A stretch of DNA of 64,000 nt from Sulfurimonas sp. CG01_land_8_20_14_3_00_36_23. Its GTDB lineage: Bacteria; Campylobacterota; Campylobacteria; Campylobacterales; Sulfurimonadaceae. Under the pieces are notes generated by a model. It saw only the letters and a list, made by a program, of their open reading frames with translations. It was not told the origin of the DNA and did not search any database. Position 1 is the first letter of the stretch. Every line of letters begins with the position of its first letter. A program made the position numbers and the translations under genes. The DNA lies in the NCBI GenBank assembly GCA_002781365.1, contig PETN01000016.1, positions 62,001 through 126,000 of the forward strand, read 5' to 3'. Shown piece by piece: positions 385-58,747 of the stretch.

Positions 385-951
385 TTAAACAGCTCTTATG
401 TTGTCAAAAAACCAGTAAAACGCCATAATCAAGCCTGGTGTTTTATGCTGAGTCTCATCAAACATAAACTTTTTTGCCTCCGCAAAAGGGAGATAAATGA
501 CTTCTATATCCTCCTCTTCAAGACCACCACCATTATTTACTTGCATTGCATCGGAGACTTCTGCATAATAGAGGGTTTGAAGTGCGCCAGAAATACCAAC
601 ATTAGTGTAGTATGAGGTCACTCTTTGTATATTTTCTACAGGAACATCATAGCCGCACTCTTCTAAAATCTCCTCTTTTGCTATCTGCACATTTTTGGCA
701 TCTTTATCGACTAATCCCGCGCAGAGTTCATAGGTGTAGCCATTTACTTTGTTGGAGTTTAAAACAGTGATTCTTAGCTGCTTAACAAGAATAAAAGACT
801 CTTTTTGGACATGCCAAAGAAGGATGCTCACACTATCATGACTTAGAACCGCTTCCCATGTTTTTTTGATATTTTTGAGGGTGTAGTTAATCTGAATTGG
901 CTTCGCATATATTGGGTTTTCAAGTGCTTGAATTGAGTCTATTTTAACCAT
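385..951 (-). CDS. Nudix hydrolase, NUDT14-like nucleoside-diphosphate-sugar pyrophosphatase
   Basis: 188 residues. The central block YELCAGLVDKD, followed by EEILEECGY, is a Nudix box in the form found in NUDT14-type UDP/ADP-sugar pyrophosphatases. The flanking segments HDSVSILLW, VKQLR, and TNVGISGALQTLYYAEV with GGGLEEEDIEV also match that subfamily. The canonical Arg of the Nudix box is replaced here (EEILEE rather than REUxEE). Such enzymes hydrolyse nucleotide sugars to sugar phosphate and NMP. The gene starts inside the last 8 bases of the upstream M23 peptidase gene, so the two are probably translationally coupled. Substrate is inferred from family resemblance only. Confidence 0.8.
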   Translation of the reverse strand: MVKIDSIQALENPIYAKPIQINYTLKNIKKTWEAVLSHDSVSILLWHVQKESFILVKQLRITVLNSNKVNGYTYELCAGLVDKDAKNVQIAKEEILEECGYDVPVENIQRVTSYYTNVGISGALQTLYYAEVSDAMQVNNGGGLEEEDIEVIYLPFAEAKKFMFDETQHKTPGLIMAFYWFFDNIRAV

Positions 952-2173: not shown

Positions 2174-2214
2174 AAAACTCTAACAAAATTTGGCTTAGTC
2201 TGAGGTTTGTTTGC

Positions 2215-2220
2215 TATAAT
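2215..2220 (+). promoter_or_regulatory. -10 element for the PgbA_N-domain gene
   Basis: The stretch TTGCTATAAT at 2211-2220 contains a perfect TATAAT. Transcription would start near 2227 and give a ~25-base leader before the ATG at 2252. The same 10-mer precedes alr at 16151-16160. No clear -35 box is visible, which is common for sigma-70 promoters in this phylum. Confidence 0.6.
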
Positions 2221-2251
2221 CGCTTTATAAAATAAAGAAAAGAGTAGATAT

Positions 2252-3046
2252 ATGAAATATATTTTGTTAATGTTTATGCTTATTTTGGAGCTTTGTGCCT
2301 CTGTTGTTCAATCCCCTATCGTAAGTGTAGAAGGTACTACCGCGACAATAAAAATAGAAAAAATAGATGTTGGTATGAGCGGTTTTGTAGTACATCATTT
2401 GCCTGAGGGACATACGAGCATTTTAAAAAATGTAGTTGTAAAAAGTTTTGATAGTGAAAGTAAAATGGCTACCTTAGAGATGAGTGACTATACTGGACTT
2501 TTTAACAATGCTTTACCAACAGGACGTTGGCATGTGGAAATTGGAGACACTGTTATCCTCGCTTTTGCTTATGACAGAGGATTGCTTATTGCTCCAAATG
2601 AAGAGATTTACCATAGAATCACAATCTCTGCGAAAACACTTCAGTGGATACACCCAGATATTTTTGCAACCATTCTCTCGTTCAACGGGCACAGAACACC
2701 GATGAAAAATGATTTTGAACAACTCAGTAACTCCGTCTCAGTAGGACTCCTCTTTTTCTATTTGGATAAAAAACTTTATATGGTGGATTCGAAAAGTTTT
2801 GCGATTTTAACGATTACAGATGCAGATTTAGCGCAAGAGTCCAAGCAACTCCCTTTTTACAGAAGAGTACCTGAGTTAGATGTTATATGGCTTGGAGAGG
2901 GAAGTTCTGAGATTGAAGATTATGAACCTTACTACTATGAACTGTTGTTCACTTACAACAGAGAAAACAAGCAACTGCTTGAAAACATAAAAGCCCAAGG
3001 CCCAAAGTATGAAGAGTTACTAAAGAAGTTAGAGAGTAAGGAGTAG
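2252..3046 (+). CDS. PgbA_N-domain (plasminogen-binding-type N-terminal domain) exported protein
   Basis: 264 residues with a signal peptide (MKYILLMFMLILELCAS). The body, including IEKIDVGMSGFVVHH, the later FDSESKMATLE and RITISAKTLQWIHPDIFA, matches the N-terminal domain of Helicobacter PgbA/PgbB-type proteins, which is conserved across Campylobacterota including free-living species. That distribution makes plasminogen binding an unlikely native role here; the true function is unknown. The next gene (glcD-like) starts 2 bases after the stop, so they probably share a transcript. A perfect copy of the dispersed repeat (2528-2540) encodes W-H-V-E in the middle of the domain. Confidence 0.75.
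   Translation: MKYILLMFMLILELCASVVQSPIVSVEGTTATIKIEKIDVGMSGFVVHHLPEGHTSILKNVVVKSFDSESKMATLEMSDYTGLFNNALPTGRWHVEIGDTVILAFAYDRGLLIAPNEEIYHRITISAKTLQWIHPDIFATILSFNGHRTPMKNDFEQLSNSVSVGLLFFYLDKKLYMVDSKSFAILTITDADLAQESKQLPFYRRVPELDVIWLGEGSSEIEDYEPYYYELLFTYNRENKQLLENIKAQGPKYEELLKKLESKE
2528..2540 (-). repeat. Dispersed 13-bp repeat, exact
   Basis: Exact TTTCCACATGCCA on the minus strand, inside the PgbA_N-domain gene. Confidence 0.9.
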
Positions 3047-3048
3047 AG

Positions 3049-4434: not shown

Positions 4435-4447
4435 TCAATCTAAAAGT

Positions 4448-5293
4448 GTGACCAACATGCAAACAAAGATAGAAAAAATCCATCATCTTTACAGACATCT
4501 AAAGTTCTTTATCAAAACTTTTTTTGATAAAGAGTTAACCCTCTTTGCCGCGAGTCTTAGTTTTTATACTATCTTTACGATTATCCCGCTTCTTTTAATT
4601 ATGCTCACACTTTTAACCTCTTTGCCTAGTTTTGCTGAGCATTATGAGAGTATAAAAATCTTTATCTTCTCCAACCTAATGCCAGTCAATTCAGAGTCTA
4701 TTATGGGGCATATTGATGGCTTTTTAGCCAACTCTGCGAAGATGGGAGTGATAGGATTGGCTATGATTTTAGTCGCTTCGCTTCTCTTTTTTCAAAACTT
4801 TGAGTACATCGCAAATAAAATTTTCCATGCCAAAAAAAGAACACTATGGGAGTCTGTAACAACTTACTGGACGATGCTGACACTCACTCCCATCGCACTT
4901 GGAATTTCCTTTTACATCACAGGGTATGTAGCCAATCTCGTTGCATCCAATGAGTACACATCAGGCTTAAATATACTTCCATATATCCCTTATATCATTA
5001 TCTGGGGACTCTTTTTTCTCATCTTTCAAATAGCTGCAAATACTAAAATAAATCCTAAAGCCTCTTTGATAAGTTCATTTATAATCTCGATAATCTTTAG
5101 CATCTCAAAAAATGCCTTTATCTACTATGTCTTTTTTAACAAATCTTACACAACCATGTATGGCTCTTTTGCCATCGTTATGTTTCTCTTCTTATGGATT
5201 TATGTTTCTTGGATTATTTTTATTTATGGTCTGAAACTATGTTATTTGATAAACCGCATATATGAAAAGAGAGAGGCTGTAGAGAAGAAGTAA
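4448..5293 (+). CDS. YihY/BrkB-family inner-membrane protein
   Basis: 281 residues with about six hydrophobic segments. The opening FDKELTLFAASLSFYTIFTIIPLLLIML is the family signature (hydrophobic helix with AxSLSFYtl..ipPl), and the end MYGSFAIVMFLFLWIYVSWIIFIYGLKL matches the C-terminal helix pair. The family was once mis-annotated as ribonuclease BN; its transport or envelope role is not settled. The GTG at 4448 gives MTNMQ; the ATG at 4457 is an alternative start. The 3' end overlaps the convergent comEC gene by 57 bases. Confidence 0.8.
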   Translation: MTNMQTKIEKIHHLYRHLKFFIKTFFDKELTLFAASLSFYTIFTIIPLLLIMLTLLTSLPSFAEHYESIKIFIFSNLMPVNSESIMGHIDGFLANSAKMGVIGLAMILVASLLFFQNFEYIANKIFHAKKRTLWESVTTYWTMLTLTPIALGISFYITGYVANLVASNEYTSGLNILPYIPYIIIWGLFFLIFQIAANTKINPKASLISSFIISIIFSISKNAFIYYVFFNKSYTTMYGSFAIVMFLFLWIYVSWIIFIYGLKLCYLINRIYEKREAVEKK

Positions 5294-6514
5294 GTAGATA
5301 AAACTTTTTTTCCACATGCCAAGAAAAGAGAGCAAAATGTGCACAAAGAGCCATTTGATTTCAAATACTACACTCCTCTGAATCTCGCCTAAAGCTATAA
5401 AACTCTCTAAAATCCCATCCAATAAATCAGCAAAACCAATTAAGTGAAAAAAGAGGCTCAGCGGATAGAAGAGAGTAAAGAGGGTTGTCCATAAAATTGA
5501 GAGTGGGTGGTAGATGCTAAAACTTCCAAAGAGCGCCAGAGAAAAGGGAAGCATTAAGAGATAAAGCCAAAAGGGCAAAAGGATAAATTGCCAATATTTA
5601 TGCAGATGTTTGAAGTGAATCAAAAACAAAAAGATATAAAATACCCCACTCATAGAGAGCCAAAACCCAAGAGAAAAAAGAAGTCTTGGAAAAAAGCTTA
5701 AAAGTAATATGAGGGTTAAAGAGAGTGTCAGCATTGAGACAATTTTTATTCCTCTATCATACAAAATAAAGCCAATGAAAAGCATGGCAAAGGCACGAAG
5801 AAGTGAAGCGGGAGAGTCCAAAAAAAGCAGATAACAAAGCAGGAAAAAAGCTACAATACTAAATAAATCTGCCTTGGAGTTTCTGTAGGGAAAATAGCGC
5901 TGTTGCAAGAGTTTATAAGGATACTTAAGTAAAAAGAAAAGGAGGGCGCTGAGAACTCCTAAGTGAAAACCGCTGAGAGCTAAAAGGTGAGAAACTCCTA
6001 AAGCAGAGAAGACTCCTTGCAACTCATATCTAAGCGGAGTGGCAAGGTAAAGAGCCTGATAAATATTTGCTATATATTCGTTCTCATGGCTTTGTGAGAG
6101 GGAGGCGGAGAGCTTCTGTTTTAGGCTTTGCTCTTGATGAATCCTTATCTCTTTTGTATAGGCGAAAAAAGTTGTGAAGTAGTCGTAAAAGTTTATAGTA
6201 TCTGTCCAAATCTCTATTTCTACTTCTTGCTCTTTGGCATGTGGAAAGTTTTTGTTGAGCGTGGTATAAAAAGAGAAGCCTTGATCGCTTTTGAGCTTTA
6301 AAACCTGATATGTTTTACGTTTGCCGCTCTCTACCTCTTTTGTTTTTGTGTACTGTTTCAGAACTGTTGCAGTTACTAAAGCAGAGTCAAATTGTGTAAG
6401 TTTTTTGTAGTTTTGGTACTCAAGGAGAAGTGAGTAGGTGAGAATGATTCCACATGCCAAAAGGAAAAGAAAAAAGTCTCTCTTTGAGGTAAAGAGAGAG
6501 ACTCTTTCTAACAT
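5237..6514 (-). CDS. comEC: ComEC/Rec2-family DNA uptake channel (short form)
   Basis: 425 residues. A short N-terminal extracytoplasmic domain (about 30-125) after the first membrane helix resembles the OB-fold-like region of ComEC. It is followed by the family signature GVSHLLALSGFHLGVL (about residues 172-187) and the conserved DSPASLLRAFAML inside a run of hydrophobic helices. ComEC forms the inner-membrane channel through which single-stranded DNA enters during natural transformation. Unlike the long Bacillus protein, no C-terminal metallo-beta-lactamase domain is present. The gene starts 6 bases after dnaB and lacks a clear ribosome site, suggesting coupling. Three copies of the dispersed repeat lie in this gene (5309, 6235, 6447), the densest cluster in the window. 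Confidence 0.88.
   Translation of the reverse strand: MLERVSLFTSKRDFFLFLLACGIILTYSLLLEYQNYKKLTQFDSALVTATVLKQYTKTKEVESGKRKTYQVLKLKSDQGFSFYTTLNKNFPHAKEQEVEIEIWTDTINFYDYFTTFFAYTKEIRIHQEQSLKQKLSASLSQSHENEYIANIYQALYLATPLRYELQGVFSALGVSHLLALSGFHLGVLSALLFFLLKYPYKLLQQRYFPYRNSKADLFSIVAFFLLCYLLFLDSPASLLRAFAMLFIGFILYDRGIKIVSMLTLSLTLILLLSFFPRLLFSLGFWLSMSGVFYIFLFLIHFKHLHKYWQFILLPFWLYLLMLPFSLALFGSFSIYHPLSILWTTLFTLFYPLSLFFHLIGFADLLDGILESFIALGEIQRSVVFEIKWLFVHILLSFLGMWKKSFIYLLLLYSLSLFIYAVYQIT
5309..5321 (+). repeat. Dispersed 13-bp repeat, exact
   Basis: Exact TTTCCACATGCCA near the 3' end of comEC, read there as G-M-W-K. It lies 15 bases past the convergent yihY stop. Confidence 0.9.
6235..6247 (-). repeat. 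Dispersed 13-bp repeat, exact
   Basis: Exact copy in comEC, read in the gene's own frame as F-P-H-A-K. Confidence 0.9.
6447..6459 (+). repeat. Dispersed 13-bp repeat, 12/13
   Basis: ATTCCACATGCCA in the first membrane helix of comEC, read as A-C-G-I. Confidence 0.8.
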
Positions 6515-11321: not shown

Positions 11322-11334
11322 TTTCCACATGCTA
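11322..11334 (+). repeat. Dispersed 13-bp repeat, 12/13, left arm of a pair
   Basis: TTTCCACATGCTA, one mismatch. It faces the exact copy at 11343-11355. Confidence 0.8.
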
Positions 11335-11342
11335 AAGAGTAT

Positions 11343-11355
11343 TGGCATGTGGAAA
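11343..11355 (-). repeat. Dispersed 13-bp repeat, exact, right arm of a pair
   Basis: Exact copy, intergenic, downstream of the TonB receptor gene. Confidence 0.9.
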
Positions 11356-11370: not shown

Positions 11371-13329
11371 TTAGAACTTAACTGTAAAGTTTGTGTAGAT
11401 ATATCTTCCAGGTTCATTAAGAAGCATTGTGTCTGCTCCTGCTGAGATAAGTGTTAAATCTACATAAGTATTTGATTTTGCGTATGTTTCATCAAAAAGG
11501 TTGTTGACTCCTAAAGTGAAATGAACGTTTTTATGGAGGGCATGTTTGAGCTTAAAGTTTACAACACCCCAAGCACCTAAAGTCTGCTCACCATTATCTG
11601 TGTCAATGTCACTCCATTTATCTGATAGTTGTGATTCAACTGTTAAAAGTGAGTCATTTTGGTACTCATAATTGAAGGCTACGTTTCCTCTCAAAGGTGC
11701 CATATCTGCTAAATCTTTGTCTGTTTGTCCAACAAGAGCATTTGCTTTTTGACCTTTTTTGTAAGAGGCACTCATATCTATACTCATCTCATCTGTTGCA
11801 AAGTAAGAAGCTGTAAGTTCAGCCCCATAAACCGTAGCATCTACATTTTGAAAAGTTGAACCTTTTTGGAGGTAGATATAATCTTTTAGCATAGAGTAGA
11901 AAGTTTTTACTTTGAATTTCATAGAGTCATTTTGAAGTTCATACCCTAAATCTACCTCTTGGTTTGTAGTCTGTTTTAAATTTTGGTTTGCAGTAGTTGG
12001 CATATATAACTCTCTTGCATCAGGAACACGAGACGCTTGACCAAAACCTAAAAAGATTTTGTTCGACCCAGAGAGCTTGTATGATGTTAAGATGTTTGCA
12101 TTGAGACCATTGTAGCTATTTGTTTTCATGCTTGCATCGGTTGGCGTAATATCTGTAGAATCATATCTCGCACCGAGTTCGATTTTAAAATCTCCAAGCT
12201 CTTTTTTCACTTTTGCAAAGAGCGCTTGGTTTTGCGTGAGTGTGTCCGTTAAACTTACAGAGTGCATGCCTTCCGCCCCTGACATCGTTGTAGTCATAAA
12301 TTTCTCACCAACCCAAGTTCTCTTACTTCCATCAAGTCCAACTAAGATGTCAAAAGTTCCAACTTCAAAACTATTTTTGAGTTTTAATCCTTGCATCGTT
12401 GTTTGAAGTTGATTTGTCATATACATCATCGTACCACTATTTCTTAGTCGTGTATCCATAGGATGATCCACATCTGAGTAGTAGTACTTTAGGTTTAAAT
12501 CTTTGTAGATGTCTGAGAGATTTTTAACATCATACGCAACACTGTAGATGTTCGAGTAGTCATACGCCGCATCCATTTTAGAGCTTGGATATAAAACATC
12601 ATCACTTCTATTTTGTGTAGCACTGAGTTGTAACTCTTGGTCCTCTGCAACATCTACAAAGATTTTTGCCATGACACTGTTTTTCTTGTAGGCCTGCATA
12701 TCTTCATATTTTGTTTGGTAAGTTGCTGTGCCTGCAGATGGGTTGTTCGCTACTTGTTGTGCTAAAGTATCTCCGTTTCCATCTTTGTATTGGTCGCTAC
12801 TTTCAGTAGAGGCACTTACTAAAACTCTTATAAGATCATTTCCACCACTTACAGTCGCGCCGACTTTTGTGTAGTTCCACATGCCATAACCTAGGTTGAA
12901 CTCACCATGTAAATCTTTAGTCGGTTTCTTTGTAGTGATTTTTACACCACCACTCATCACTCCAAAAGTCTCAACATCATAAGGACCTTCCGTTACTTCA
13001 ACAGACTCGATTTGGTTTGCTAAAATATGAGAGACAGGAGGATCCATTCTGTTTGGACACGCTCCACAAACTTTTGTGCCATCGACTTCTATAGAAATAT
13101 TGTCTCGTTTTTGACCACGGATGTAGATATCATTTGCGATACCGCTACGACGATTCATATCAATACTTGGAACTTTTTCACTGAGTGCTTGTGCCAAATC
13201 TGCTGAAACTTGAGCGTTTTGACTCACTTCAGTGATGAGAGTAGCTTCTACATTGATTGGAGCGAGTTCATGCTCCGCTGCAAAGAGAGATGCAATAGTT
13301 ATGAAAGAGAGAGGAATTATTTTATTCAT
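11371..13329 (-). CDS. TonB-dependent outer-membrane copper receptor, OprC/NosA-like
   Basis: 652 residues: signal peptide (1-18), a plug domain with VPSIDMNRRSGIANDIYIRG and VEVTEGPYDVETFG, then a beta-barrel ending in aromatic F-T-V-K-F. Residues Cys91-Pro-Asn-Arg-Met95 form the CxxxM, and His289-Pro-Met291 the HxM, that together bind copper in the OprC/NosA group. This assignment comes from the motifs and is inference, but both halves are present in the right order. NosA-type receptors supply copper for nitrous oxide reductase and cytochrome oxidases. A repeat variant (12874-12886) encodes G-M-W-N. Confidence 0.85.
   Translation of the reverse strand: MNKIIPLSFITIASLFAAEHELAPINVEATLITEVSQNAQVSADLAQALSEKVPSIDMNRRSGIANDIYIRGQKRDNISIEVDGTKVCGACPNRMDPPVSHILANQIESVEVTEGPYDVETFGVMSGGVKITTKKPTKDLHGEFNLGYGMWNYTKVGATVSGGNDLIRVLVSASTESSDQYKDGNGDTLAQQVANNPSAGTATYQTKYEDMQAYKKNSVMAKIFVDVAEDQELQLSATQNRSDDVLYPSSKMDAAYDYSNIYSVAYDVKNLSDIYKDLNLKYYYSDVDHPMDTRLRNSGTMMYMTNQLQTTMQGLKLKNSFEVGTFDILVGLDGSKRTWVGEKFMTTTMSGAEGMHSVSLTDTLTQNQALFAKVKKELGDFKIELGARYDSTDITPTDASMKTNSYNGLNANILTSYKLSGSNKIFLGFGQASRVPDARELYMPTTANQNLKQTTNQEVDLGYELQNDSMKFKVKTFYSMLKDYIYLQKGSTFQNVDATVYGAELTASYFATDEMSIDMSASYKKGQKANALVGQTDKDLADMAPLRGNVAFNYEYQNDSLLTVESQLSDKWSDIDTDNGEQTLGAWGVVNFKLKHALHKNVHFTLGVNNLFDETYAKSNTYVDLTLISAGADTMLLNEPGRYIYTNFTVKF
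12874..12886 (+). repeat. Dispersed 13-bp repeat, 12/13
   Basis: GTTCCACATGCCA inside the TonB receptor gene. Confidence 0.8.
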
Positions 13330-15151: not shown

Positions 15152-16150
15152 TTACACTTTAATCTCAACACCCTTCGCAAAGTTCATCGTAACGCAGTGA
15201 AGCGAACCGTGTTGTTTGATGAGTGTGAGACAATCTATGCCGACTATCTCTCTCTCTGGAAAAGTTTCTCTAAAAATGGCTAAGGCTTCTGCGTCCTCTT
15301 TTACCCCATACGTTGGAACTAAAACAGCACCGTTTAGCAGGAGAAAATTTGCGTAGGTTGCAGGGAGTCTCTCCTCTTCATAGTAAACTGCCTCACTCAT
15401 TGGAAGGGCGATGAGTTTAAAGCCATGACTTTTAGAGAGTCCTTCTAGCTCCTCTTGCATCAGTTTTAGCTCTTTATAGTGCTCATCCTCTCTATTTCCA
15501 CATGCCACATACATGATAGTTTTTTCATCTATAAACCGTGCCAAAGTATCGACATGCGAATCTGTGTCATCTCCCGCTAAATAGCCATGGTGCAGATATA
15601 AAATCTCTTTTGCGTGAAGTTTCTCTTTTATCTTTTGTGTTATCTCTTCTTCTGAGAGGGTATTGTTTCGGTTTTTGTTTTGTACACACTCAAAAGTGGT
15701 TAAAACAATTCCCGCACCATTGCTCTCAACTGCCCCACCTTCGAGGATAAAGTCGATTGTTTCCACTTCTGCGGAGTAGTTTTTTGAGATGGCTTGGCTC
15801 ATTTTGTTATCTTTGCTCGCTTCAAACTTGCCGCCCCAACCTGTAAAAGTAAAGTCTAGAAGTTTGCGTGACGCGTTCTCTTGTATGGATAAAACCGAAC
15901 AATCTCTCGCCCAACAATCATCTGTCTCATACTCCACAAAGTAGAGATTTTCATTTGGTTCAAAGTGCTTTTTTACATTTTCTAGAGAGGCACAAACAAC
16001 TAAACACTTCTCATACTTAATAATCGCCTTGATAATCTGGATGAAATTTTCCTCTGCTTCTTGCAAATACTCGACCCAATCACTTTTGGCATGTGGAAAT
16101 AGTATTTGTATAAAACTTTGCTCTTCAAACTCCGCAATAAACCTACTCAT
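15152..16150 (-). CDS. aguA: Agmatine deiminase-family protein
   Basis: 332 residues. The peptidylarginine/agmatine deiminase fold is shown by TDDCWARDCS, LDFTFTGWGGKF, ILEGGAVESNG, GDDTDSHVDTLARF (catalytic His and Asp) and GSLHCVTMNF with the catalytic Cys near residue 319. The enzyme converts agmatine to N-carbamoylputrescine in putrescine synthesis, which feeds polyamines. Its start lies only 16 bases from the divergent alr start, so its promoter must sit inside the alr coding region. Two exact repeats (15495, 16087) encode V-A-C-G-N and F-P-H-A-K. Confidence 0.88.
   Translation of the reverse strand: MSRFIAEFEEQSFIQILFPHAKSDWVEYLQEAEENFIQIIKAIIKYEKCLVVCASLENVKKHFEPNENLYFVEYETDDCWARDCSVLSIQENASRKLLDFTFTGWGGKFEASKDNKMSQAISKNYSAEVETIDFILEGGAVESNGAGIVLTTFECVQNKNRNNTLSEEEITQKIKEKLHAKEILYLHHGYLAGDDTDSHVDTLARFIDEKTIMYVACGNREDEHYKELKLMQEELEGLSKSHGFKLIALPMSEAVYYEEERLPATYANFLLLNGAVLVPTYGVKEDAEALAIFRETFPEREIVGIDCLTLIKQHGSLHCVTMNFAKGVEIKV
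15495..15507 (+). repeat. Dispersed 13-bp repeat, exact
   Basis: Exact copy inside the agmatine deiminase gene, read as V-A-C-G-N. Confidence 0.9.
16087..16099 (-). repeat. Dispersed 13-bp repeat, exact
   Basis: Exact copy near the 5' end of the agmatine deiminase gene, read as F-P-H-A-K. Confidence 0.9.
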
Positions 16151-26954: not shown

Positions 26955-27662
26955 TTAGTTATTTTTTAAGTGCAGTCCACACTCTTTATGTTCTGGACTC
27001 TCCCACCACCATCTTCCAGAGCGAATATCTTCGCCTGCCGCGATGGCACGGGTACATGGAGCACATCCAATACTTGGAAAGCCCTGTTCGTGTAACTCAT
27101 TGTATGGAACTTTATGTTTTTTAAGATAGTCCCAAACTTCCTCTTCACTCCATTCGATGAGTGGATTTATTTTGATGAGATTGTTTCCTTCATCAAATTC
27201 AACCAACTTCATACTCTCTCTTGTTTGAGATTGACTACGACGCAGTCCTGTTATCCAAACATCAAGCGTGCTTAAAGCTCTTTTGAGTGGAGCAATTTTA
27301 CGAATATGACAACACTCTTTTCTATTCTCTATGCTCTCTTTAAATCCATTGATGCCCTGTGTTTGGTAAAGTGTCTCAACATCTTTGGCATGTGGAAATA
27401 GAACATCTATCTTAATGTTGTATTTTCTATTTGTTAAATCCATCACTTTATAAGTTTGCTCATAAAGTCTACCCGTATCAAGAGTAAATATTTTTGCCTT
27501 TGCATCTTGTTTGAGTAGCAAGTCTGTAAGAACCTGATCCTCTGCACCAAGACTCGATGCCAATGCTATCTTCTCGCCATAGGTAGATAAAAAATATTTT
27601 AGTACCTCTTCTATAGGGGCATTTTCAAATTTTTTGTTCAATAAATCAATATTTTCTTTCAT
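26955..27662 (-). CDS. cysH: APS reductase (assimilatory, iron-sulfur type)
   Basis: 235 residues. PP-loop-like ASSLGAEDQVL, then KECCHIRKIAPL and, near the end, GCAPCTRA. The CC...CxxC set binds a 4Fe-4S cluster and marks APS (not PAPS) reductases; the redox-active Cys is in the C-terminal HKECGLH. It reduces APS to sulfite and AMP. Lack of a CysC kinase in the cluster agrees. An exact copy of the repeat at 27386 encodes F-P-H-A-K. Confidence 0.93.
   Translation of the reverse strand: MKENIDLLNKKFENAPIEEVLKYFLSTYGEKIALASSLGAEDQVLTDLLLKQDAKAKIFTLDTGRLYEQTYKVMDLTNRKYNIKIDVLFPHAKDVETLYQTQGINGFKESIENRKECCHIRKIAPLKRALSTLDVWITGLRRSQSQTRESMKLVEFDEGNNLIKINPLIEWSEEEVWDYLKKHKVPYNELHEQGFPSIGCAPCTRAIAAGEDIRSGRWWWESPEHKECGLHLKNN
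27386..27398 (-). repeat. Dispersed 13-bp repeat, exact
   Basis: Exact copy inside cysH; the only core-bearing copy in the whole sulfate cluster. Confidence 0.9.
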
Positions 27663-29009: not shown

Positions 29010-31124
29010 TTAGTGGGAGCTGTTTTTTAGAAGGAGCGTGATTTCATCCGCTGGGATTGGTTTTGAGTAGAGATATCCTTGTATAAAGTAACAACCATTT
29101 CTTATAAGGAACTCTTTTTGAGACTTCTCTTCTACACCCTCAGCTATGATTTTGAGGTTTAAACTTGTTCCAAGAGCAATAATCGCCTTGGTTATCGCCA
29201 TGTCATCCTCATCATGTGGAATATCCATAATAAAAGATCTATCTATTTTAAGTTTTTTAATCGGGAGTTTTTTGAGATAGGAGAGCGAAGAGTAGCCTGT
29301 TCCAAAATCATCTATGGCAATATTGATTCCAAGCTTGTCAAGCGCATTGAGTTTTTGAATGGACTCTTCAGGATTACTCATAATGTGGCTCTCTAAAACT
29401 TCTAATTCCAGCCAATGCGTCTGAAAATCAAGTTTTTGCATCGTATCGAGTAAGTCAGAGACAAAATCTTTTGAATTTAGTTGTGCCATGGTGAGGTTGA
29501 GGGAGAGTTTTCCAGGTTCAAGAGAGTCTCTGTACCATTGAGCAAATCTTCGCATAGCCTCATGCATAACAATTTTATCTATCTCTAAAATGAGACCACT
29601 TTCATGGGCGATGGAGAGGAATTTGCCTGGCGGAATAATTCCTAAATCTGGATGTCTCCATCGAACAAGCGCTTCCATTCCTATGATTTTATCTGTGAGT
29701 ACATTATATTGGGGTTGAAAATAGACAAGAAACTGATTCTCTTTTATAGCTTGTAAAAGAGAGTTCTCCATGATGACTTTTTCAAAAGCGAGTTGCGTCA
29801 TCTCAGAGGAGTAGAATCGAAAGTTATTTCTTCCCTCATCTTTTGCTTTATACATGGCAGCATCTGCGAACTTTGTTAAGTCATTTGCATCCGCTGAATC
29901 TTCAGGGTATAAGCTTATCCCAATACTAGCTGTCATATAGAGTGTATGTGCATCAATTTTTATGGGCTCTTTGATAGCATCTATAATTTTGTTTGTAATC
30001 GCAGAGATGTATTGAATCTTTTTGATATTGTTTAAAATGATTGCAAATTCATCCCCACCTAATCTTGCAACTGTATCCTCTGAATCTGTAAGTGCATTTA
30101 ATCTGCAAGCCACTTCAATAATGACTCTATCCCCTAGTGTATGTCCAAGTGAATCATTGATTTTTTTAAACTGATCTAAATCTATAAAGAGTAGAGCAAA
30201 ATGATGATTGCTATGTTGAGCGTGAATGATGGATTGGGATAACCTGTCTTGAAAAAGGTTTCGATTTGGAAGTGAGGTAAGTGAATCATAATTCTCTTTG
30301 AAGCTTATCTGCTCACTCTGTTTTAGAATCTGCTCTTCGGCTTGTACAATCTCTGTAATATCTGTAGAAAAAATAACAAGGGCTTTTGTATGATAATAGG
30401 ATAATTCATGAATATAGGATTGTACATGGTAGGTTGTGCCATCTTTTCTAAGGCGAAGGGCTCTATTAGAAATAGTTTTTTGAGTTTCTGCATAGACTTT
30501 TTTTAAGAGTTCAACTTTTTCTAAAGACAAATCAACATTGATATCAAATATTGTGAGCCCTAAGAGCTCTTCAAATGTATATCCTATAGTCTTGCATGCA
30601 CTTTGGTTTGCATATAAAATATTTAATGTTTCATACTCTAAGACATAGATTTCATTTGCTGAGTACTCTACAAGTTCAGAAAGCGCAGCAGAGTTTTTTT
30701 CTAGAGTTACTTTGTGTGTAACATCTTGCGTCGTCCCGATAAGTTTGAAAGGCTTCTTCTCTTCATCATAAATAACCTGACCATGAAGCAACAAATTGAT
30801 TGTTTCTCCAGACTCTTTTGTGAGTCTACACTCAAAGGATTCAACTTCTCCACTCTGCATAATCTTTGCTAAGGTTTGTTGCGCTCTTGGTAAATCTTCA
30901 GGGACTAAGTGCGATAAAAAAAGTTCTAAGGTTGGTTCAACTTCACCTACTTTGTAACCATAGTTCAGATAACTTTGATCTGACCAAATTGATTTTTTAG
31001 TCACTAAATCTATTTCCCAACTGCCTAGCTTTGTGATATTTTCTAGGAGCATAAAGCTATTTTCTTTAGCTTGTAGCTTCTTTAAAGCTGTAGCTAAATC
31101 ATCTTTTAAGATGTCTATTGGCAT
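29010..31124 (-). CDS. PAS-PAS-GGDEF-EAL cyclic-di-GMP protein
   Basis: 704 residues from the ATG at 31124 (MPIDILKDDL), with AAGGA upstream; a longer in-frame reading to 31184 is less likely. Two PAS domains (about 20-130 and 140-260) precede a GGDEF domain with intact RLGGDEFAII and an EAL domain with GMEALVRWRHP, a catalytic Glu in LEVLESH, and IDDFGTGYSS and IAEGVEE. Both enzymatic halves look active, so it may make and break c-di-GMP. There is no membrane segment. Its start codon is the ATG inside an exact copy of the dispersed repeat. Confidence 0.9.
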   Translation of the reverse strand: MPIDILKDDLATALKKLQAKENSFMLLENITKLGSWEIDLVTKKSIWSDQSYLNYGYKVGEVEPTLELFLSHLVPEDLPRAQQTLAKIMQSGEVESFECRLTKESGETINLLLHGQVIYDEEKKPFKLIGTTQDVTHKVTLEKNSAALSELVEYSANEIYVLEYETLNILYANQSACKTIGYTFEELLGLTIFDINVDLSLEKVELLKKVYAETQKTISNRALRLRKDGTTYHVQSYIHELSYYHTKALVIFSTDITEIVQAEEQILKQSEQISFKENYDSLTSLPNRNLFQDRLSQSIIHAQHSNHHFALLFIDLDQFKKINDSLGHTLGDRVIIEVACRLNALTDSEDTVARLGGDEFAIILNNIKKIQYISAITNKIIDAIKEPIKIDAHTLYMTASIGISLYPEDSADANDLTKFADAAMYKAKDEGRNNFRFYSSEMTQLAFEKVIMENSLLQAIKENQFLVYFQPQYNVLTDKIIGMEALVRWRHPDLGIIPPGKFLSIAHESGLILEIDKIVMHEAMRRFAQWYRDSLEPGKLSLNLTMAQLNSKDFVSDLLDTMQKLDFQTHWLELEVLESHIMSNPEESIQKLNALDKLGINIAIDDFGTGYSSLSYLKKLPIKKLKIDRSFIMDIPHDEDDMAITKAIIALGTSLNLKIIAEGVEEKSQKEFLIRNGCYFIQGYLYSKPIPADEITLLLKNSSH

Positions 31125-31131
31125 GTGGAAA
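31119..31131 (-). repeat. Dispersed 13-bp repeat, exact, spanning a start codon
   Basis: Exact copy whose internal ATG is the predicted start of the GGDEF-EAL gene. Confidence 0.9.
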
Positions 31132-38561: not shown

Positions 38562-38984
38562 ATGTATGATTTTGTTGTTTGGTTTCATATTTTATCTTTC
38601 GTCTCTTGGTTTGCGGTTCTCTTTTACTTGCCAAGACTTTTCGTCTATCATGCAGAAAATGCTGAGAATGAAGGTTTTGTAAAAGTTATAAAAATCATGG
38701 AGTTTAAAATCTTCAAGTATATTGGTGTCCCTGCAATGTGGGCAACAGTTTTAAGTGGCTCGTACTTGGCTTATGAACTTGGGTTGAGTGGCAATGGCTG
38801 GTTACATGCAAAAATATTGTTTGTCTTGATATTGATAGCTTACTTTGTCTCACTTGGAGTACTTAGAAAGAGACTTTTAGAGGGGAGCTGTACGAAGAGT
38901 GGGAAATTCTTTCGTTACTATAACGAAGTACCAACATTGATACTGATGGTCATTGTTGCAATGGTTATTTTTAAACCATTCTAA
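38562..38984 (+). CDS. hemJ: Protoporphyrinogen IX oxidase HemJ
   Basis: 140 residues with four membrane helices. The opening MYDFVVWFHILSFVSWFAVLFYLPRLFVYH, with His9, matches the HemJ (UPF0093) family, and WLHAKILFVLILIAY keeps the conserved His/Lys pair. It oxidises protoporphyrinogen IX with electrons passing to the quinone pool. It ends at the repeat-pair hairpin shared with der. Confidence 0.9.
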   Translation: MYDFVVWFHILSFVSWFAVLFYLPRLFVYHAENAENEGFVKVIKIMEFKIFKYIGVPAMWATVLSGSYLAYELGLSGNGWLHAKILFVLILIAYFVSLGVLRKRLLEGSCTKSGKFFRYYNEVPTLILMVIVAMVIFKPF

Positions 38985-38994
38985 ATCATACTTT

Positions 38995-39007
38995 TAGCAT
39001 GTGGAAA
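38995..39007 (-). repeat. Dispersed 13-bp repeat, 12/13, left arm of a pair
   Basis: Minus strand reads TTTCCACATGCTA, intergenic between convergent hemJ and der. Confidence 0.8.
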
Positions 39008-39023
39008 TAAACTTTCCACATGC
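38997..39023. terminator. Bidirectional hairpin built from two opposed repeats
   Basis: GCATGTGGAAA (38997-39007) and TTTCCACATGC (39013-39023) form a perfect 11-bp stem with a 5-base loop, exactly between the stops of hemJ (+) and der (-). Confidence 0.8.
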
Positions 39024-39025
39024 CA
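39013..39025 (+). repeat. Dispersed 13-bp repeat, exact, right arm of a pair
   Basis: Exact copy, intergenic; right arm of the hairpin. Confidence 0.9.
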
Positions 39026-39033
39026 AACAACTA

Positions 39034-40521
39034 CTACTTATCGCCTCTCGTTTTAGCCTTGAAAAGAACAGGTGTTCCCGTAAAATTAAAAGCTTCTCTT
39101 AGTTTATTTGTAAGATATCTTCTGTATGTAAAGTGTAGCCCTTTAGGTTTATTCATAACGATGGCAATCTTTGGTGGTCTTGTTTCGTATTGCGTTGTAT
39201 AGTAGATACGTATAACCTGACCATGCATACTTGGAAGCTGATGACGTCTTAGTGCTTTTTCCATTACTGCATTGAGCTGAGAGGTTGTGATGCGTTGCGA
39301 GTAGTTTTCATTAATCTCTAAAATCATGTCATGAAGTTTGTTCACTCTTTGATGTGACTTTGCTGAGAGTGTTATGATAGGTGCGTAGGCTAAAAACTTA
39401 AATCTGTCGCGAACCTCTAAAATAATCTTATCATGATCCTCTCTATTTGAGATATCCCACTTGTTTAAAACAATAATACAAGCCAATCTATTGCTATCTA
39501 CAAGACCAGCGATTTTTTCATCTAAGTCTAAAAAAGGCTCACTTGCATCTAAAACAATAAGTGCCATATTAGAGTTTGCCAACATCTCTGTTGTTCGCAT
39601 TAAAGCAAATTTTTCTATACCAATAATCTTACCACGACGACGCAGACCCGCTGTATCTACAAAGGTTAGCTGTTTACCTTTGTACTCAATTGTCTCATCA
39701 ATAGGATCAATCGTAGTTCCAGCAACACTACTTACAACGGAGCGTTCTTCCCCAAGCAGAGCATTTAAAAGAGAGCTCTTTCCAACATTCGTACGACCAA
39801 TAATCGCAATTTTAATGTGGTTCACATCATTTTCGTCAAACTCTTTAATCATATCATTTTGAGCAAAAATGGACTCCTCTTCTACTTCTTCTTCATCCGT
39901 GTAAAAGTAACCGTCATCCTCATCTTCATCATGTGCATATTGTGAGAAGAACTCTTCATCATCGAGCTCTGGTTCTAGCACAGAAATTGCTTCATCTTCC
40001 TCTTCTTCAAGCTCTTCTTCTTTAACAATATCAGAGTCTGGGACTTTTGAAGCTATCCACTCAAGAAGTTCGACTGTGTTCCTGTTGTGTGCTACGGAGA
40101 TACCAAATATGGCATCTGTACCAAACTCATAGAATTCCCAAAGTTTCTCTTTCATCTTGTCATTATCGATTTTGTTGACTACAAGTGCTATGTCTTTACC
40201 CATATTTTGAAGTTCATAAAAGAGTTTTTTGTCTTCATCCTCAGGTAAACCTTTTCCATCCACCATGAAGAGAATAATATCTGCCTTATATGCAGTTTTA
40301 AGGGACATCTCTTTAATCTTGTCAAAGAGCTCACACCCTTGGTCAAGTCCACCAGTATCTAGGAGTTCTACTTGTTTATTGATAATAATAGTATTACGTC
40401 TTTTTATATCTCTTGTTGTTCCTGCAAAGTCTGATGTAATCGCATCTCTCTTTTTTACTAAACGGTTGAAAAGAGAGCTTTTTCCAACATTTGGACGACC
40501 AATAATGGCGATTTTTTTCAT
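39034..40521 (-). CDS. der: GTPase Der (EngA)
   Basis: 495 residues with two tandem G domains: GRPNVGKSSLFNRL at residues 8-21 and GRTNVGKSSLLNALLG in the second, plus a C-terminal KH-like domain ending with FTGTPVLFKAKTRGDK. The linker between the two is long and very acidic (EEELEEEEDEAISVLEPELDD and following), longer than the usual Der linker. It acts in 50S ribosome assembly. AAGGT precedes the ATG. Confidence 0.97.
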   Translation of the reverse strand: MKKIAIIGRPNVGKSSLFNRLVKKRDAITSDFAGTTRDIKRRNTIIINKQVELLDTGGLDQGCELFDKIKEMSLKTAYKADIILFMVDGKGLPEDEDKKLFYELQNMGKDIALVVNKIDNDKMKEKLWEFYEFGTDAIFGISVAHNRNTVELLEWIASKVPDSDIVKEEELEEEEDEAISVLEPELDDEEFFSQYAHDEDEDDGYFYTDEEEVEEESIFAQNDMIKEFDENDVNHIKIAIIGRTNVGKSSLLNALLGEERSVVSSVAGTTIDPIDETIEYKGKQLTFVDTAGLRRRGKIIGIEKFALMRTTEMLANSNMALIVLDASEPFLDLDEKIAGLVDSNRLACIIVLNKWDISNREDHDKIILEVRDRFKFLAYAPIITLSAKSHQRVNKLHDMILEINENYSQRITTSQLNAVMEKALRRHQLPSMHGQVIRIYYTTQYETRPPKIAIVMNKPKGLHFTYRRYLTNKLREAFNFTGTPVLFKAKTRGDK

Positions 40522-49975: not shown

Positions 49976-50045
49976 TTATTGCAAAATGAAATATTTTAAG
50001 ATGAGATTTTAAAAAAGCGATACTCTTTTGTATCAAGGAGTTAAA

Positions 50046-51884
50046 ATGAATCTCACAAAAGAGCAAGCAGATAAATTTAAAAAACTCTCCATAAATAGTT
50101 GGAGTGAACTCGCTCTGATGATTCCACACGCTTATGAAGATTTCCGTCTTCATGATAAACTTCAAATCCACACGTCACAACTTATAGATGCAACGGTAGA
50201 ATCACTCTATCGTTCTGCGAACTCCATACAGATAACTTTTTATGCACATAACTTTGGACATACGCTCACTGGTGTTCTCTTTCGTCCAAAGCCCTATATG
50301 CTTCATCAGTTTCAAGTAGGTGAGCGAAACTACTTCTATGGGATGGTAGAGTGCAAAGCAGGGCAGTGTAGTATCACTATGCCAAGAAAAGTTACAACGG
50401 TAGGAGAGATTACGCCAAAGTACAAAACAGCCTTAAGAACAGATGTGATGCAGCGTTTTGTGCAAAATAATTTAACGCGTGAAAATCTCAAAGCAGAAGC
50501 TCTTGATGAGGAGATGATAGAGGAGATTTTAAAGCTTCATTTTCCTACAGATGCAATGCTCAAATCAAAAGAGCTAAGTCCAAAAACAGTTTATGCCTTA
50601 AAATATGTAGAGCTCTTTTCACACATGAAACTCCTTGCAGGTACGAGACGCTATTTCAAAGCTTTAGCAAGCCTGCCCTCCTTGGTTGAGGGTGGAAATG
50701 GTAACTATACAGAGTGGGCAGCAACTTTACCATTTAAGCTCACCAATGAGCAGATAGATACTATAGAAGAGATAAAAAAAGATTTAACTAAGGATGTCGC
50801 AGCTAAACGAATGGTTGTTGGTGATGTTGGAAGCGGAAAGACGATGGTTATCTTAGCTTCTGCCGTGATGATGTTTCCTCACCGCTCGATTCTTATGGCA
50901 CCAACAACCATACTGGCAAATCAGCTTTTTGAAGAGGCTCTGAAATTTATTCCACCCTCAACCAAGGAGGGCAGGCATATCAAAATAGCTTTGGTTACTA
51001 ACAAAACTAAAAAGATAGATTTGAGTGAGTTTGATTTTATTATAGGAACACATGCACTTCTTTATAGAGAGCTTCCACATGCTGAACTGGTTATGGTGGA
51101 TGAGCAACACCGCTTTGGAACACAACAGAGAAACCTTTTGGAAAAACTTGTAAGTAGTGGCAAAGAGAAGCCTCACTACTTACAGTTTTCTGCCACGCCG
51201 ATTCCAAGAACACAGGCGATGATAGAGACAGCGCACATTGATGTGAGTATGATAACCTCCACTCCATTTAAAAAAGATATAACAAGCAGAGTGATTCACA
51301 AGAGTGATTTTAAAGATTTACTCCAACATATAAAAAGTGAAGTAGATAAAAACAATCAGGTACTACTTGTCTATCCTTTAGTAGAACAGAGTGAGGTTTT
51401 AGAGTATCAAAGCATCACAGAAGCACGCTCCTATTGGGAAAAGAGTTTTGAAAATGTCTATGTTACGCATGGAAAAGATAAAGAGAAAGAGGAAGTTTTA
51501 CTGCAGTTTAGAGAAAAGGGAAGCATTTTAATTGCTACAACAGTTGTTGAAGTGGGTATCTCTCTTCCAAGGTTAAGCACAGTTGTGATTGTCGGTGCGG
51601 AACGCTTAGGACTCTCAACACTCCATCAGTTACGTGGACGTGTAAGTAGAACAGGCTTAAAAGGGTACTGCTTTTTATACACAAACCAGAATAGCTCCGA
51701 TAGGTTGGAGCAGTTTGTAGAGACAATCAGCGGTTTTGATATTGCAAATCTGGATTTAAAGTTTAGAAAAAGTGGAGATTTACTCAAAGGCTCCAATCAA
51801 AGTGGAAATCAGTTTAAGTGGGTTGATATTGGGGAAGATGAAGAGATTGTTCAAAAGGTGAAAAAAGATTTAAAGATTATTTAG
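50046..51884 (+). CDS. recG: ATP-dependent DNA helicase RecG
   Basis: 612 residues from the ATG at 50046, with AAGGAG just upstream; a TTG at 50028 lies before this ribosome site. The wedge/OB region is followed by helicase motifs: VVGDVGSGKTMVILA (Walker A), MVDEQHRFG (DEQH box) and ATTVVEVGISLPRLSTVVIVGAERLGLSTLHQLRGRVSRTG. It remodels stalled forks and recombination intermediates. It is shorter than the ~690-residue enterobacterial form. A repeat variant (51072) overlaps the codons before the DEQH box (E-L-P-H-A), and an inverted pair follows the stop. Confidence 0.94.
   Translation: MNLTKEQADKFKKLSINSWSELALMIPHAYEDFRLHDKLQIHTSQLIDATVESLYRSANSIQITFYAHNFGHTLTGVLFRPKPYMLHQFQVGERNYFYGMVECKAGQCSITMPRKVTTVGEITPKYKTALRTDVMQRFVQNNLTRENLKAEALDEEMIEEILKLHFPTDAMLKSKELSPKTVYALKYVELFSHMKLLAGTRRYFKALASLPSLVEGGNGNYTEWAATLPFKLTNEQIDTIEEIKKDLTKDVAAKRMVVGDVGSGKTMVILASAVMMFPHRSILMAPTTILANQLFEEALKFIPPSTKEGRHIKIALVTNKTKKIDLSEFDFIIGTHALLYRELPHAELVMVDEQHRFGTQQRNLLEKLVSSGKEKPHYLQFSATPIPRTQAMIETAHIDVSMITSTPFKKDITSRVIHKSDFKDLLQHIKSEVDKNNQVLLVYPLVEQSEVLEYQSITEARSYWEKSFENVYVTHGKDKEKEEVLLQFREKGSILIATTVVEVGISLPRLSTVVIVGAERLGLSTLHQLRGRVSRTGLKGYCFLYTNQNSSDRLEQFVETISGFDIANLDLKFRKSGDLLKGSNQSGNQFKWVDIGEDEEIVQKVKKDLKII
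51072..51084 (+). repeat. Dispersed 13-bp repeat, 10/13
   Basis: CTTCCACATGCTG inside recG; the core CCACATGC is kept. Confidence 0.6.
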
Positions 51885-51897
51885 TTTCCACATGCCA
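51885..51897 (+). repeat. Dispersed 13-bp repeat, exact, left arm of a pair
   Basis: Exact copy starting at the base after the recG stop codon. Confidence 0.92.
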
Positions 51898-51907
51898 AGA
51901 ACTTTTT

Positions 51908-51920
51908 TGGCATGTGGAAA
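51908..51920 (-). repeat. Dispersed 13-bp repeat, exact, right arm of a pair
   Basis: Exact copy ending 6 bases before the convergent HPF stop. Confidence 0.92.
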
Positions 51921-51926
51921 TAACTA

Positions 51927-52460
51927 TTAATAGAGTCCGAATTTCCCGTCGTTTCTTTTATAAAGAACACGTGTTTTACCCTCATTGTCAATAAAGATTT
52001 CAAAAAGTTTCCCATTCTCTTTAATCGCTTCTAACACATCTTCAACTTCACGTGGTTTGTAAAGCTCAAGTTCCACTGGTACAATTTTATCTTCAAGTGC
52101 TTCACCCGCTTCTTTAACATCAGCAGTTTCACTTTTTGCTTCATTTAAACCAATTTTACTGTGGTCAATATCTTTATCATGCATACGACGCATAGCTTTT
52201 TGTGCTCTTGAAATAGCTAAATCAATAGCTGCATATAAGTCATCGTCATTTTGTTTGATAATGATAGAGTTTTTGTGCGCGAGATTGATTACAAATTCTA
52301 CAACTGAGTGGTCTTTGCCTTTTTTAGTTTGTGCTGATGCTACTACACTCACAGAGATGATGTCCATATTGTATTTACTTAAAGTTTCAATCGATGTAGT
52401 CATATGAGCTTTGATAGCGTCAGTTAGTTCTAAATGTCTTCCCGTAAGAGAAATATTCAT
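51927..52460 (-). CDS. hpf: Ribosome hibernation promoting factor, long form
   Basis: 177 residues: an N-terminal S30AE domain (MNISLTGRHLELTDAIKAHM, then DDLYAAIDLAISRAQKAMRRMHDK) and a C-terminal dimerisation domain (KPREVEDVLEAIKENGKLFEIFIDNEGKTRVLYKRNDGKFGLY). Long HPF alone can make 100S ribosome dimers. AAAGGAT precedes the ATG. A short paralog lies at 37556-37885. The C-terminal domain is of the usual form. Confidence 0.93.
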   Translation of the reverse strand: MNISLTGRHLELTDAIKAHMTTSIETLSKYNMDIISVSVVASAQTKKGKDHSVVEFVINLAHKNSIIIKQNDDDLYAAIDLAISRAQKAMRRMHDKDIDHSKIGLNEAKSETADVKEAGEALEDKIVPVELELYKPREVEDVLEAIKENGKLFEIFIDNEGKTRVLYKRNDGKFGLY

Positions 52461-52514: not shown

Positions 52515-52955
52515 TTATAATTTTTGGATGCTTCTTCTAAAGTAACGGATAGGTTCCGTACCTGCAGTTGAAGTGACTGTAATATCCATAAGCACTGAAC
52601 CGTTTTGTTCTGGAGTTGCAATGTTGAAGTAGTTTGTACATGTTCCTACGGTACCAGTATAAATATATAACATAGTGACATTTACATCATAAAGATTGTT
52701 GTCAAAAGAGGTAATGATATTATCTATGCATCCATTTTGTGCTATATCTAATAGAGCCAGTTCAGCAGCACTTTTTGCATAGAGAGCAGCTTGTTCATGA
52801 AGATAGATATCTGTTGTTTTTTTACCTGTAGTTACTGTTAAAGCCAAGGAGAGCGCCATTATCGTGGAGATGACTAAAAGTATGGTGATAGCCATAATCA
52901 TAGCTATCCCCCTTCGTTGAGAAGGTAAGTTTAAAAAATAGTTTTTTCTTTGCAT
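52515..52955 (-). CDS. Minor pilin/MshP-like prepilin protein
   Basis: 146 residues. QRRGIAMIMAITILLVISTIMALSLALTVT is a type IV pilin-like N-terminal helix after a basic leader, with Gly before the hydrophobic run, but without the Glu at position 5; that is typical of PilX/MshP/GspK-like subunits. The rest is a small globular domain with two Cys (GCIDNI, GTCTNYF). It overlaps the upstream minor pilin gene by 25 bases. Last gene of the mshQ-like operon. Confidence 0.72.
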   Translation of the reverse strand: MQRKNYFLNLPSQRRGIAMIMAITILLVISTIMALSLALTVTTGKKTTDIYLHEQAALYAKSAAELALLDIAQNGCIDNIITSFDNNLYDVNVTMLYIYTGTVGTCTNYFNIATPEQNGSVLMDITVTSTAGTEPIRYFRRSIQKL

Positions 52956-53839
52956 AAAGAGTACTCCTCATTTTGAAGTAAGCTGCTTTTCGTACATACT
53001 TGTATCTTTACAACTGAGCCAACTGCCTTAAATCTGAAAGTACTTACATTTTGCATAAGTAAAGCACTTGAAGCATTTGCATCTGTATAACTTTCACCTT
53101 CCCATGGCTGGTAATCATAGTAGAGTCTTAAGTCACCACTCTTTGTTGCGGCATTATAGTTAGTAAGTGCTACAGCATAGGCACTCCAAGCTAGTTGATA
53201 ATATTCAAACACATCTACTCCAGCGAAACTATTTGTTGTTCCATCCGTTGCATTTCTTGGAATAAGTTCATTTATGGCAGCCCCACTTTTAATGGGATGC
53301 ATAACATTACTCTGGTCTGTAAATGCTACTCCATTCCAACCGTATTTAGTAATATCACTGTTAGAACCTACAAAATAGATAGCTGAATTATTGATACCAG
53401 TTCCACTACCGTGTGACAAAATCCCTATGAGATCATTGATGGCTGTCGTGTTTGTTTCTGGGGAATCCAGTAGAATGGCTGAAGAGGTTGATATGTCAAT
53501 TATACCGCTCCAGTTTGGTCGTTTATTGCCACGAAAACCTTCAATATCGGTTCCAATCCACTCTAATACAGTTGCATTTGTATCGAGAGTAGAACTTGAT
53601 AATGCTTCAAATTTGACACCTGGTTGTCTAGCAATGATGGAATCTTTGATACGGTACTGCAACCTTGAAGCGATGGACTCAACAGCCATTTCACTCTCTG
53701 CTTGGAGGCTGTTGTTTATATTGGAGTAGATGAAACTTTTGTACGCTTGGGCTAAAAACTCAACTCCAAATTTTCCTATAATTCCCATAACAACAATCAC
53801 AAAAACAAGTTCAAGCATAGTAAAACCAAAGCGACGCAT
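52931..53839 (-). CDS. Minor pilin, MshO/PilW-like
   Basis: 302 residues. RRFGFTMLELVFVIVVMGIIGKFG is a complete prepilin leader and helix with cleavage after Gly and Glu at position 5. The long C-terminal domain (about 270 residues) is rich in Asn and Thr, with a Cys pair near the end (VQVCTKSS, YSLCKEK). Length and order suggest the MshO/PilW class. Its start overlaps the upstream stop (TAATG). It would be a tip or initiation subunit of a type IV pilus or pseudopilus. Confidence 0.78.
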   Translation of the reverse strand: MRRFGFTMLELVFVIVVMGIIGKFGVEFLAQAYKSFIYSNINNSLQAESEMAVESIASRLQYRIKDSIIARQPGVKFEALSSSTLDTNATVLEWIGTDIEGFRGNKRPNWSGIIDISTSSAILLDSPETNTTAINDLIGILSHGSGTGINNSAIYFVGSNSDITKYGWNGVAFTDQSNVMHPIKSGAAINELIPRNATDGTTNSFAGVDVFEYYQLAWSAYAVALTNYNAATKSGDLRLYYDYQPWEGESYTDANASSALLMQNVSTFRFKAVGSVVKIQVCTKSSLLQNEEYSLCKEKTIF

Positions 53840-54450
53840 TAGAAAGTCCTTCTATAGTAGTCAATTTCACCAATATTGGCACTTTTTGCTTTGAGTATTG
53901 TCACGACTTTTCCAGCTGTATTTGTTACAGTTACATTGATGTCCTTCACATTTGCATCTGCGGCAGAGACAGATACAGAGAGCGTACTATTATAGTCATC
54001 TTTGTAGCCACTTGCAGTTGGAGTTGGATTAAGAAAAATACTCTGAGAGCCATGTGCCGCATCATTTAAGTCACTCACAGCACCTCCTTGAAGATTAAAG
54101 GCTATAGTTTCATTGTTGTCTAAACATCTTCTATGATAGGGCTGATTAATATGTCCTAGTCTTAAGTTCGTTGTGCTGTTGCAATCATTTCCTATATTTA
54201 TAACTCTAGAGAGATGACTCACATTGATATCTTGCATAGAGTTTTCATCCCAGTAACCCGAAGTTGCTCCCATAAGTTCAGCAGATGCAGCAAAAATAGC
54301 CTCTTGTACAATGTTGTTCTCCATCCCTCTTTGTGTAACAACTGCCATCATTGGAAGTGACATAACAGAGATAGCTATGATAACAATCGCAAAAATAAGT
54401 TCTATCATCGTAAAAGCAAATCTTTTACGATGATTCGTCATTGCTACCAC
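53839..54450 (-). CDS. Minor pilin, MshD/PilV/GspI-like
   Basis: 203 residues from a GTG at 54450 placed 6 bases after GGAG; an ATG at 54441 is possible. KRFAFTMIELIFAIVIIAISVMSLPMMAV is the prepilin helix with Glu at position 5; the cleavage residue before F is Ala rather than Gly, which is tolerated. Two Cys (GNDCNS, HRRCLDN) may form a disulfide. It overlaps the end of the large MshQ-like gene by 7 bases. Confidence 0.75.
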   Translation of the reverse strand: MVAMTNHRKRFAFTMIELIFAIVIIAISVMSLPMMAVVTQRGMENNIVQEAIFAASAELMGATSGYWDENSMQDINVSHLSRVINIGNDCNSTTNLRLGHINQPYHRRCLDNNETIAFNLQGGAVSDLNDAAHGSQSIFLNPTPTASGYKDDYNSTLSVSVSAADANVKDINVTVTNTAGKVVTILKAKSANIGEIDYYRRTF

Positions 54451-58722: not shown

Positions 58723-58735
58723 TTTCCACATGCCA
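58723..58735 (+). repeat. Dispersed 13-bp repeat, exact
   Basis: Exact single copy, intergenic, 12 bases after the fliW stop; no opposed partner. It is followed on the plus strand by a run of A. Confidence 0.9.
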
Positions 58736-58747
58736 AAAAAAAGTTCA

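Follow-up and report, generated by a model that had tools for sequence, protein, structure and literature searches.

To our knowledge, sequence tags for DNA uptake were previously known from two unrelated families only. Campylobacter jejuni recognises self-DNA by RAATTY methylation rather than by an abundant sequence tag, and takes up DNA through a Cts machinery of the T2SS/T4P type, while the REP/BIME elements of enterobacteria, which are extragenic and longer, form inverted hairpins in 3' regions and are thought to protect mRNA ends. A terminator survey of 2026 reports uptake-type motifs in Neisseriaceae and Pasteurellaceae (PMC13020248). In the Neisseriaceae, the DUS GCCGTCTGAA is present in hundreds of copies on both strands and in several dialects, with inverted pairs in excess at gene ends, especially where genes meet tail to tail (PMC1852404, PMC3630211). 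Neisseria pairs in +- order, in which a plus-strand copy precedes a minus-strand copy, far exceed those in -+ order (Kingsford 2007, PMC1852404), because the +- order places A and T tails around the stem (PMC1852404). In H. influenzae, 65% of the uptake sequences lie in ORFs, compared with 35% in N. gonorrhoeae, and about 10% form inverted repeats (PMC1939737). For Sulfurimonas or the Campylobacterota, we found no published uptake sequence in the open-licence literature.

The motif described here, TTTCCACATGCCAA, is a short DNA word of which a Sulfurimonas-type bacterium has about 1000 copies. The window, i.e. the whole stretch of 64,000 nucleotides under analysis (C1:62001-126000 of genome G000), is part of a 2.43-Mb genome in 102 contigs, in which the 11-bp core, counted with the pattern CCACATGCCAA, occurs 633 times and its reversed control 2 times. 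The extended consensus reads ATTTCCACATGCCAAA, and its core is almost free of mutation: the exact 14-mer is present 297 times, and mutants with one core change at position 3 or later have only 0-3 copies each. Within the window, 40 matches with at most three mismatches compare with 8.0 expected, a number that none of 100 shuffles reached. Strand and context statistics, like those on pairs given below, cover 1.85 Mb of the 2.43-Mb genome; they comprise 801 CCACATGCY sites, divided 406/395 between the strands, of which 487 (61%) are single copies within coding sequences, with a preferred reading frame, while motif density is raised in every intergenic class.

In several respects this recalls the known tags. 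Like the Neisseriaceae DUS, the motif occurs in hundreds of copies on both strands and in dialects, with an excess of inverted pairs at gene ends and an enrichment in tail-to-tail gaps; unlike the DUS, to which its sequence is unrelated, it has -+ pairs that are as common as +- pairs or commoner, it lacks a T-tail, and its role in uptake is a prediction from sequence. With the Pasteurellaceae USS AAGTGCGGT it shares the balance of locations, with about 65% of the copies intra-ORF and about 10% inverted there, and 61% and about 20% here, but it is unrelated in sequence, has no long AT-rich 3' extension and comes from the phylum Campylobacterota. Inverted hairpins in 3' regions are also found with REP/BIME, and copies that are short, dispersed, partly palindromic and close to gene ends might belong to a mobile repeat of this kind or to a small MITE; at the end of contig C13 (positions 5-98), the motif even forms a one-orientation tandem array with a period of 17 bp. 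However, the similarity between copies stops at the 16-bp motif edges, with no longer shared flanks, and most copies are single and intragenic, whereas REPs are extragenic and longer, making a mobile repeat highly improbable as the source of the copies.

The motif is abundant only in part of Sulfurimonas. At least 30 copies were found in 18 of the 135 genomes of the genus, although there are fewer independent carriers than handles, since some genus handles and named handles denote one genome, as seen from identical pair counts; in a phylum sample of 397 genomes, the motif appeared in no other genus. Dialects are represented by TCACATGCC in L077 and CCACATGCCG in L031. The carriers do not form one clade: their distribution on the RecG tree needs 5 changes, compared with a mean of 10.9 after shuffling, so that gains and losses or transfer have to be assumed.

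ComEC, the inner-membrane DNA channel of natural transformation, is encoded in the window (Table 1) and in 123 of the 135 Sulfurimonas genus genomes. A T2SS/T4P-like operon with secretin and GspE-F-G-type genes is located at C44:38074-48094, and two pilin genes lie directly before priA, just as the pilin-like competence gene cj0683 does in C. jejuni, a member of the same phylum (PMC10046745). The second priA-linked pilin is basic (pI 9.4) and contains two cysteines, and by its position it is a candidate receptor for the motif; this candidacy is one by analogy only, since non-carriers have pilin homologues as well. Nor does the priA-linked pilin mark the carriers, being present in 114 of 135 genomes, and none of the pilin genes tested is confined to carriers. 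The two pilin genes, priA and comEC share a stretch of about 9 kb (G000 C1:59402-68514, partly window 1-6514), and several more genomes of the genus have pilin and comEC matches at a distance of about 7-8 kb, which points to a possible conserved competence neighbourhood. Elsewhere in the window, directly upstream of hpf on the minus strand (52515-58562), a 203-aa pilin-like protein is encoded together with a 1372-aa Calx-beta/DUF6701 protein, perhaps as an MSHA-type pilus or adhesin set.

Abundance, strand symmetry, copies within coding sequences, a strict core, dialects and a competence machinery are thus found together, as in an uptake sequence, and by its distribution, its dialects and the accompanying competence genes the motif is very probably of the uptake type; that uptake itself is sequence-specific, we infer from the same data.

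At three sites in the window, two copies of the motif face each other at short distance. The first-pass annotation had described all three as perfect inverted pairs at gene ends. Between the convergent recG and hpf genes (51885-51920) we confirm two exact inverted 14-mers, which, together with the 8-nt loop that separates them, take up 36 of the 42 bp from one stop codon to the other. The pairs between hemJ and der (38994-39026) and at 11322-11355 are equally real, but only the recG/hpf pair is perfect, as the other two have one mismatch each, with one arm reading CATGCTAA and matching at 13 of 14 positions. The pair at 11322 does follow the TonB receptor gene, as had been claimed, 15 nt after this minus-strand gene and between codirectional genes. 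RNA folding yields -16 to -25 kcal/mol for the three sites (z-scores relative to shuffled sequences, -5 to -8), and Pfam/NCBIfam models back the identities of RecG, HPF, Der, HemJ and the TonB receptor.

Table 1. Motif copies, hairpin arms and associated genes, with positions in the window.
Feature	Position	Strand	Basis of gene assignment
Single motif copy, exact	2527..2540	-	
comEC, three motif copies	5237..6514	-	Competence domain
Single motif copy, exact, inside comEC	5309..5322	+	
Single motif copy, exact, inside comEC	6234..6247	-	
Arm of hairpin after TonB receptor gene, TTTCCACATGCTAA, +- order	11322..11335	+	
Other arm of hairpin after TonB receptor gene, exact	11342..11355	-	
TonB-dependent receptor	11371..13329	-	family model
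Single motif copy, exact	16086..16099	-	
Single motif copy, exact	27385..27398	-	
Single motif copy, exact	31118..31131	-	
hemJ	38562..38984	+	below NCBIfam cut-off by little; passes Pfam UPF0093
hemJ/der hairpin arm, TTTCCACATGCTAA, -+ order	38994..39007	-	
hemJ/der hairpin other arm, exact	39013..39026	+	
der	39034..40521	-	family model
recG, ends against hairpin	50028..51884	+	family models
recG/hpf hairpin 5' arm, exact 14-mer	51885..51898	+	
recG/hpf hairpin 3' arm, exact 14-mer	51907..51920	-	
hpf, ends against recG/hpf hairpin from opposite side	51927..52460	-	family models
Single motif copy, exact	58723..58736	+	

Such pairs are a genome-wide feature. Within the 1.85 Mb, 82 inverted pairs with copies no more than 40 bp apart compare with about 7 (3.6 per orientation) expected from single-copy density, an excess of about 11-fold that is concentrated just after stop codons and upholds the earlier claim, which pairs at no more than this expectation would have contradicted; neighbouring pairs in the same orientation number 29. 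Inverted pairs contain 164 of the 801 copies, or about 20%. Their excess is limited to spacings of up to 25 bp (75 versus 22) and is gone beyond 40 bp (121 versus 121), which is what a limit on hairpin loops would give. For spacers of 0-25 nt, we counted 28 +- and 53 -+ pairs in the whole genome, and none for the reversed control patterns. Both kinds recur in other carriers, where the two orders are about even, compared with 0-1 pairs in three non-carriers. Sorted by context, with genes called by a simple script so that each count may be off by a few, the pairs fall into convergent gaps in 31 cases (31 of the 141 gaps of this kind), codirectional gaps in 36, divergent gaps in 6 and coding sequences in 6, corresponding to 2.2, 0.43, 0.17 and 0.004 pairs per kb, respectively. 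Most are situated 5-30 nt past a stop codon. Compared with intergenic single copies, pairs show a preference for convergent gaps (Fisher p = 0.0006). Between codirectional genes, the upstream stop is no more than 30 nt away for 29 of the 36 pairs, compared with 34 of the 80 single copies.

Copies that are well conserved and number in the hundreds would also suit a site bound by an intracellular protein, for example in nucleoid organisation or chromosome segregation, with no part in uptake, and the recurrence of zero-spacer palindromes such as GGCATGTGGAAATTTCCACATGCC is in line with this. A dimer site with fixed half-sites, however, should not come in two opposite arrangements with anything between 1 and about 25 nt separating the arms, as seen here; moreover, about 80% of the copies are found outside inverted pairs, 61% of all sites being single copies in coding sequences with no strand bias, and the patchy species distribution and the dialects fit uptake specificity better. 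We therefore consider a purely intracellular binding site very unlikely. The first-pass annotation had taken the pairing itself as deciding for uptake over protein binding; pairing alone does not decide between these roles, and it is the single intragenic copies, the strand symmetry and the dialects that do.

As for the pairs, combining arms at random gives matches as good as those observed, and on the transcribed strand G-U is not preferred over A-C, so that selection on RNA pairing is invisible beyond the arrangement itself; nor does pairing reach past the motif edge. It is conceivable, then, that motifs merely pile up harmlessly and that inverted neighbours are tolerated at gene ends and purged elsewhere, as the missing covariation and the raised density in all intergenic classes would allow. 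Yet same-orientation neighbours should be equally neutral, and in convergent and codirectional gaps taken together we find 67 inverted but 9 same-orientation pairs, with the excess only at hairpin distance; neutrality of the pairs thus appears improbable, if worth keeping in mind.

The stems are strong and follow shortly after the stop codon, as does the hairpin of an intrinsic terminator. Were the pairs canonical terminators of the Neisseria kind, made from uptake motifs, with a GC-rich stem and a U-tract releasing the polymerase, their sites just past stops and in convergent gaps would be readily accounted for. Downstream of the stem, however, T is no more frequent than in the background, and no U-tract follows the pairs: at least five T in 8 nt occur at 15% of the pair-bearing ends, the values for the remaining convergent ends and for a divergent control being 12% and 0%. 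Terminator-like site calling yielded none at the pair. With ATTT at the start of the motif and AAA at its end, neither order gives a T-tail, nor do the motif ends supply an A-tail, and it is the -+ order that is commoner. Hence, we regard canonical terminators as unlikely. The suggestion that an uptake motif doubles here as a terminator is accordingly borne out for the hairpins at gene ends, but not for a U-tract and pair order of the Neisseria/Haemophilus type: the hairpins are placed like 3'-end elements without the defining part of an intrinsic terminator.

The best reading of the pairs is that of uptake motifs reused as mRNA 3'-end hairpins other than canonical intrinsic terminators, and for the system as a whole we lean towards an uptake sequence of a Sulfurimonas lineage, TTTCCACATGCCAA or, extended, ATTTCCACATGCCAAA, whose pairs are kept in this capacity. 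A competence machinery that prefers motif-bearing DNA would let the self tag spread through the genome. Where two copies came to lie head to head or tail to tail past a stop codon, the transcript would fold into a hairpin of about 11-17 bp, and such pairs would be kept because at the mRNA 3' end the hairpin is of use or is at any rate tolerated. There, it would shield the end from 3'-5' exonucleases and/or contribute, for instance together with Rho, to halting RNA polymerase independently of a U-tract; such a role at the 3' end, whether U-independent or Rho-assisted termination or exonuclease protection, we infer from the placement of the pairs.

The recG/hpf gap of relatives suggests that a hairpin is often useful at this place. 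It holds hairpins of the local dialect in L031, L073 and L077, variant-motif hairpins in L003 and L005, a decayed hairpin in L008, unrelated hairpins in L018 and L028, and none in L036 and L080. The apparent compensation in L003 and L005 is weakly suggestive, as GYACATGCC variants are common in these genomes (130 copies in G135, 107 in G137).

Tentatively, we propose that part of Sulfurimonas may have evolved its own uptake sequence with species dialects, as a third independent origin and the first of the sequence type in Campylobacterota, and that the pairs may serve as U-tract-free 3'-end hairpins genome-wide. If so, a tag was born within one genus, whose dialects and near relatives without the tag would make its origin and loss directly accessible to study. 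It would also establish a contrast within the phylum, whose reference member C. jejuni relies on methylation where an abundant sequence motif is found here, and the paired copies would be a natural system in which to ask whether mRNA ends can be defined by nothing more than a hairpin, in the absence of a U-tract.

We also considered motif deserts as imported islands, but chance can account for the length of every one of them. The longest corresponds to a contig of 17 kb (G000 C61:1-17253) with type I restriction-like genes and a GC content of 0.31, the second-longest is the ATP synthase region, and the third-longest (C8:1738-18119) contains a sugar/surface-polysaccharide-like cluster with a GC content of 0.29; the low GC and gene content of the C61 and C8 deserts are as expected for imported DNA. 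Other repeats were seen in relatives. In L036, L080 and L024, Sulfurimonas genomes free of the motif, a repeat unrelated to it, CTGCGTTTA/AAACGCAGC, reaches 8 occurrences in 7.8 kb and is possibly a second uptake-type motif. L048 and L059 contain the palindrome TTACATGTAA 5-11 times in 7.8 kb, L049 has TTAGCATCA 9 times in 7.8 kb, and L082 has about 16 members of a 9-mer family around AATAGGGAAT in 7.8 kb, probably as a tandem array.
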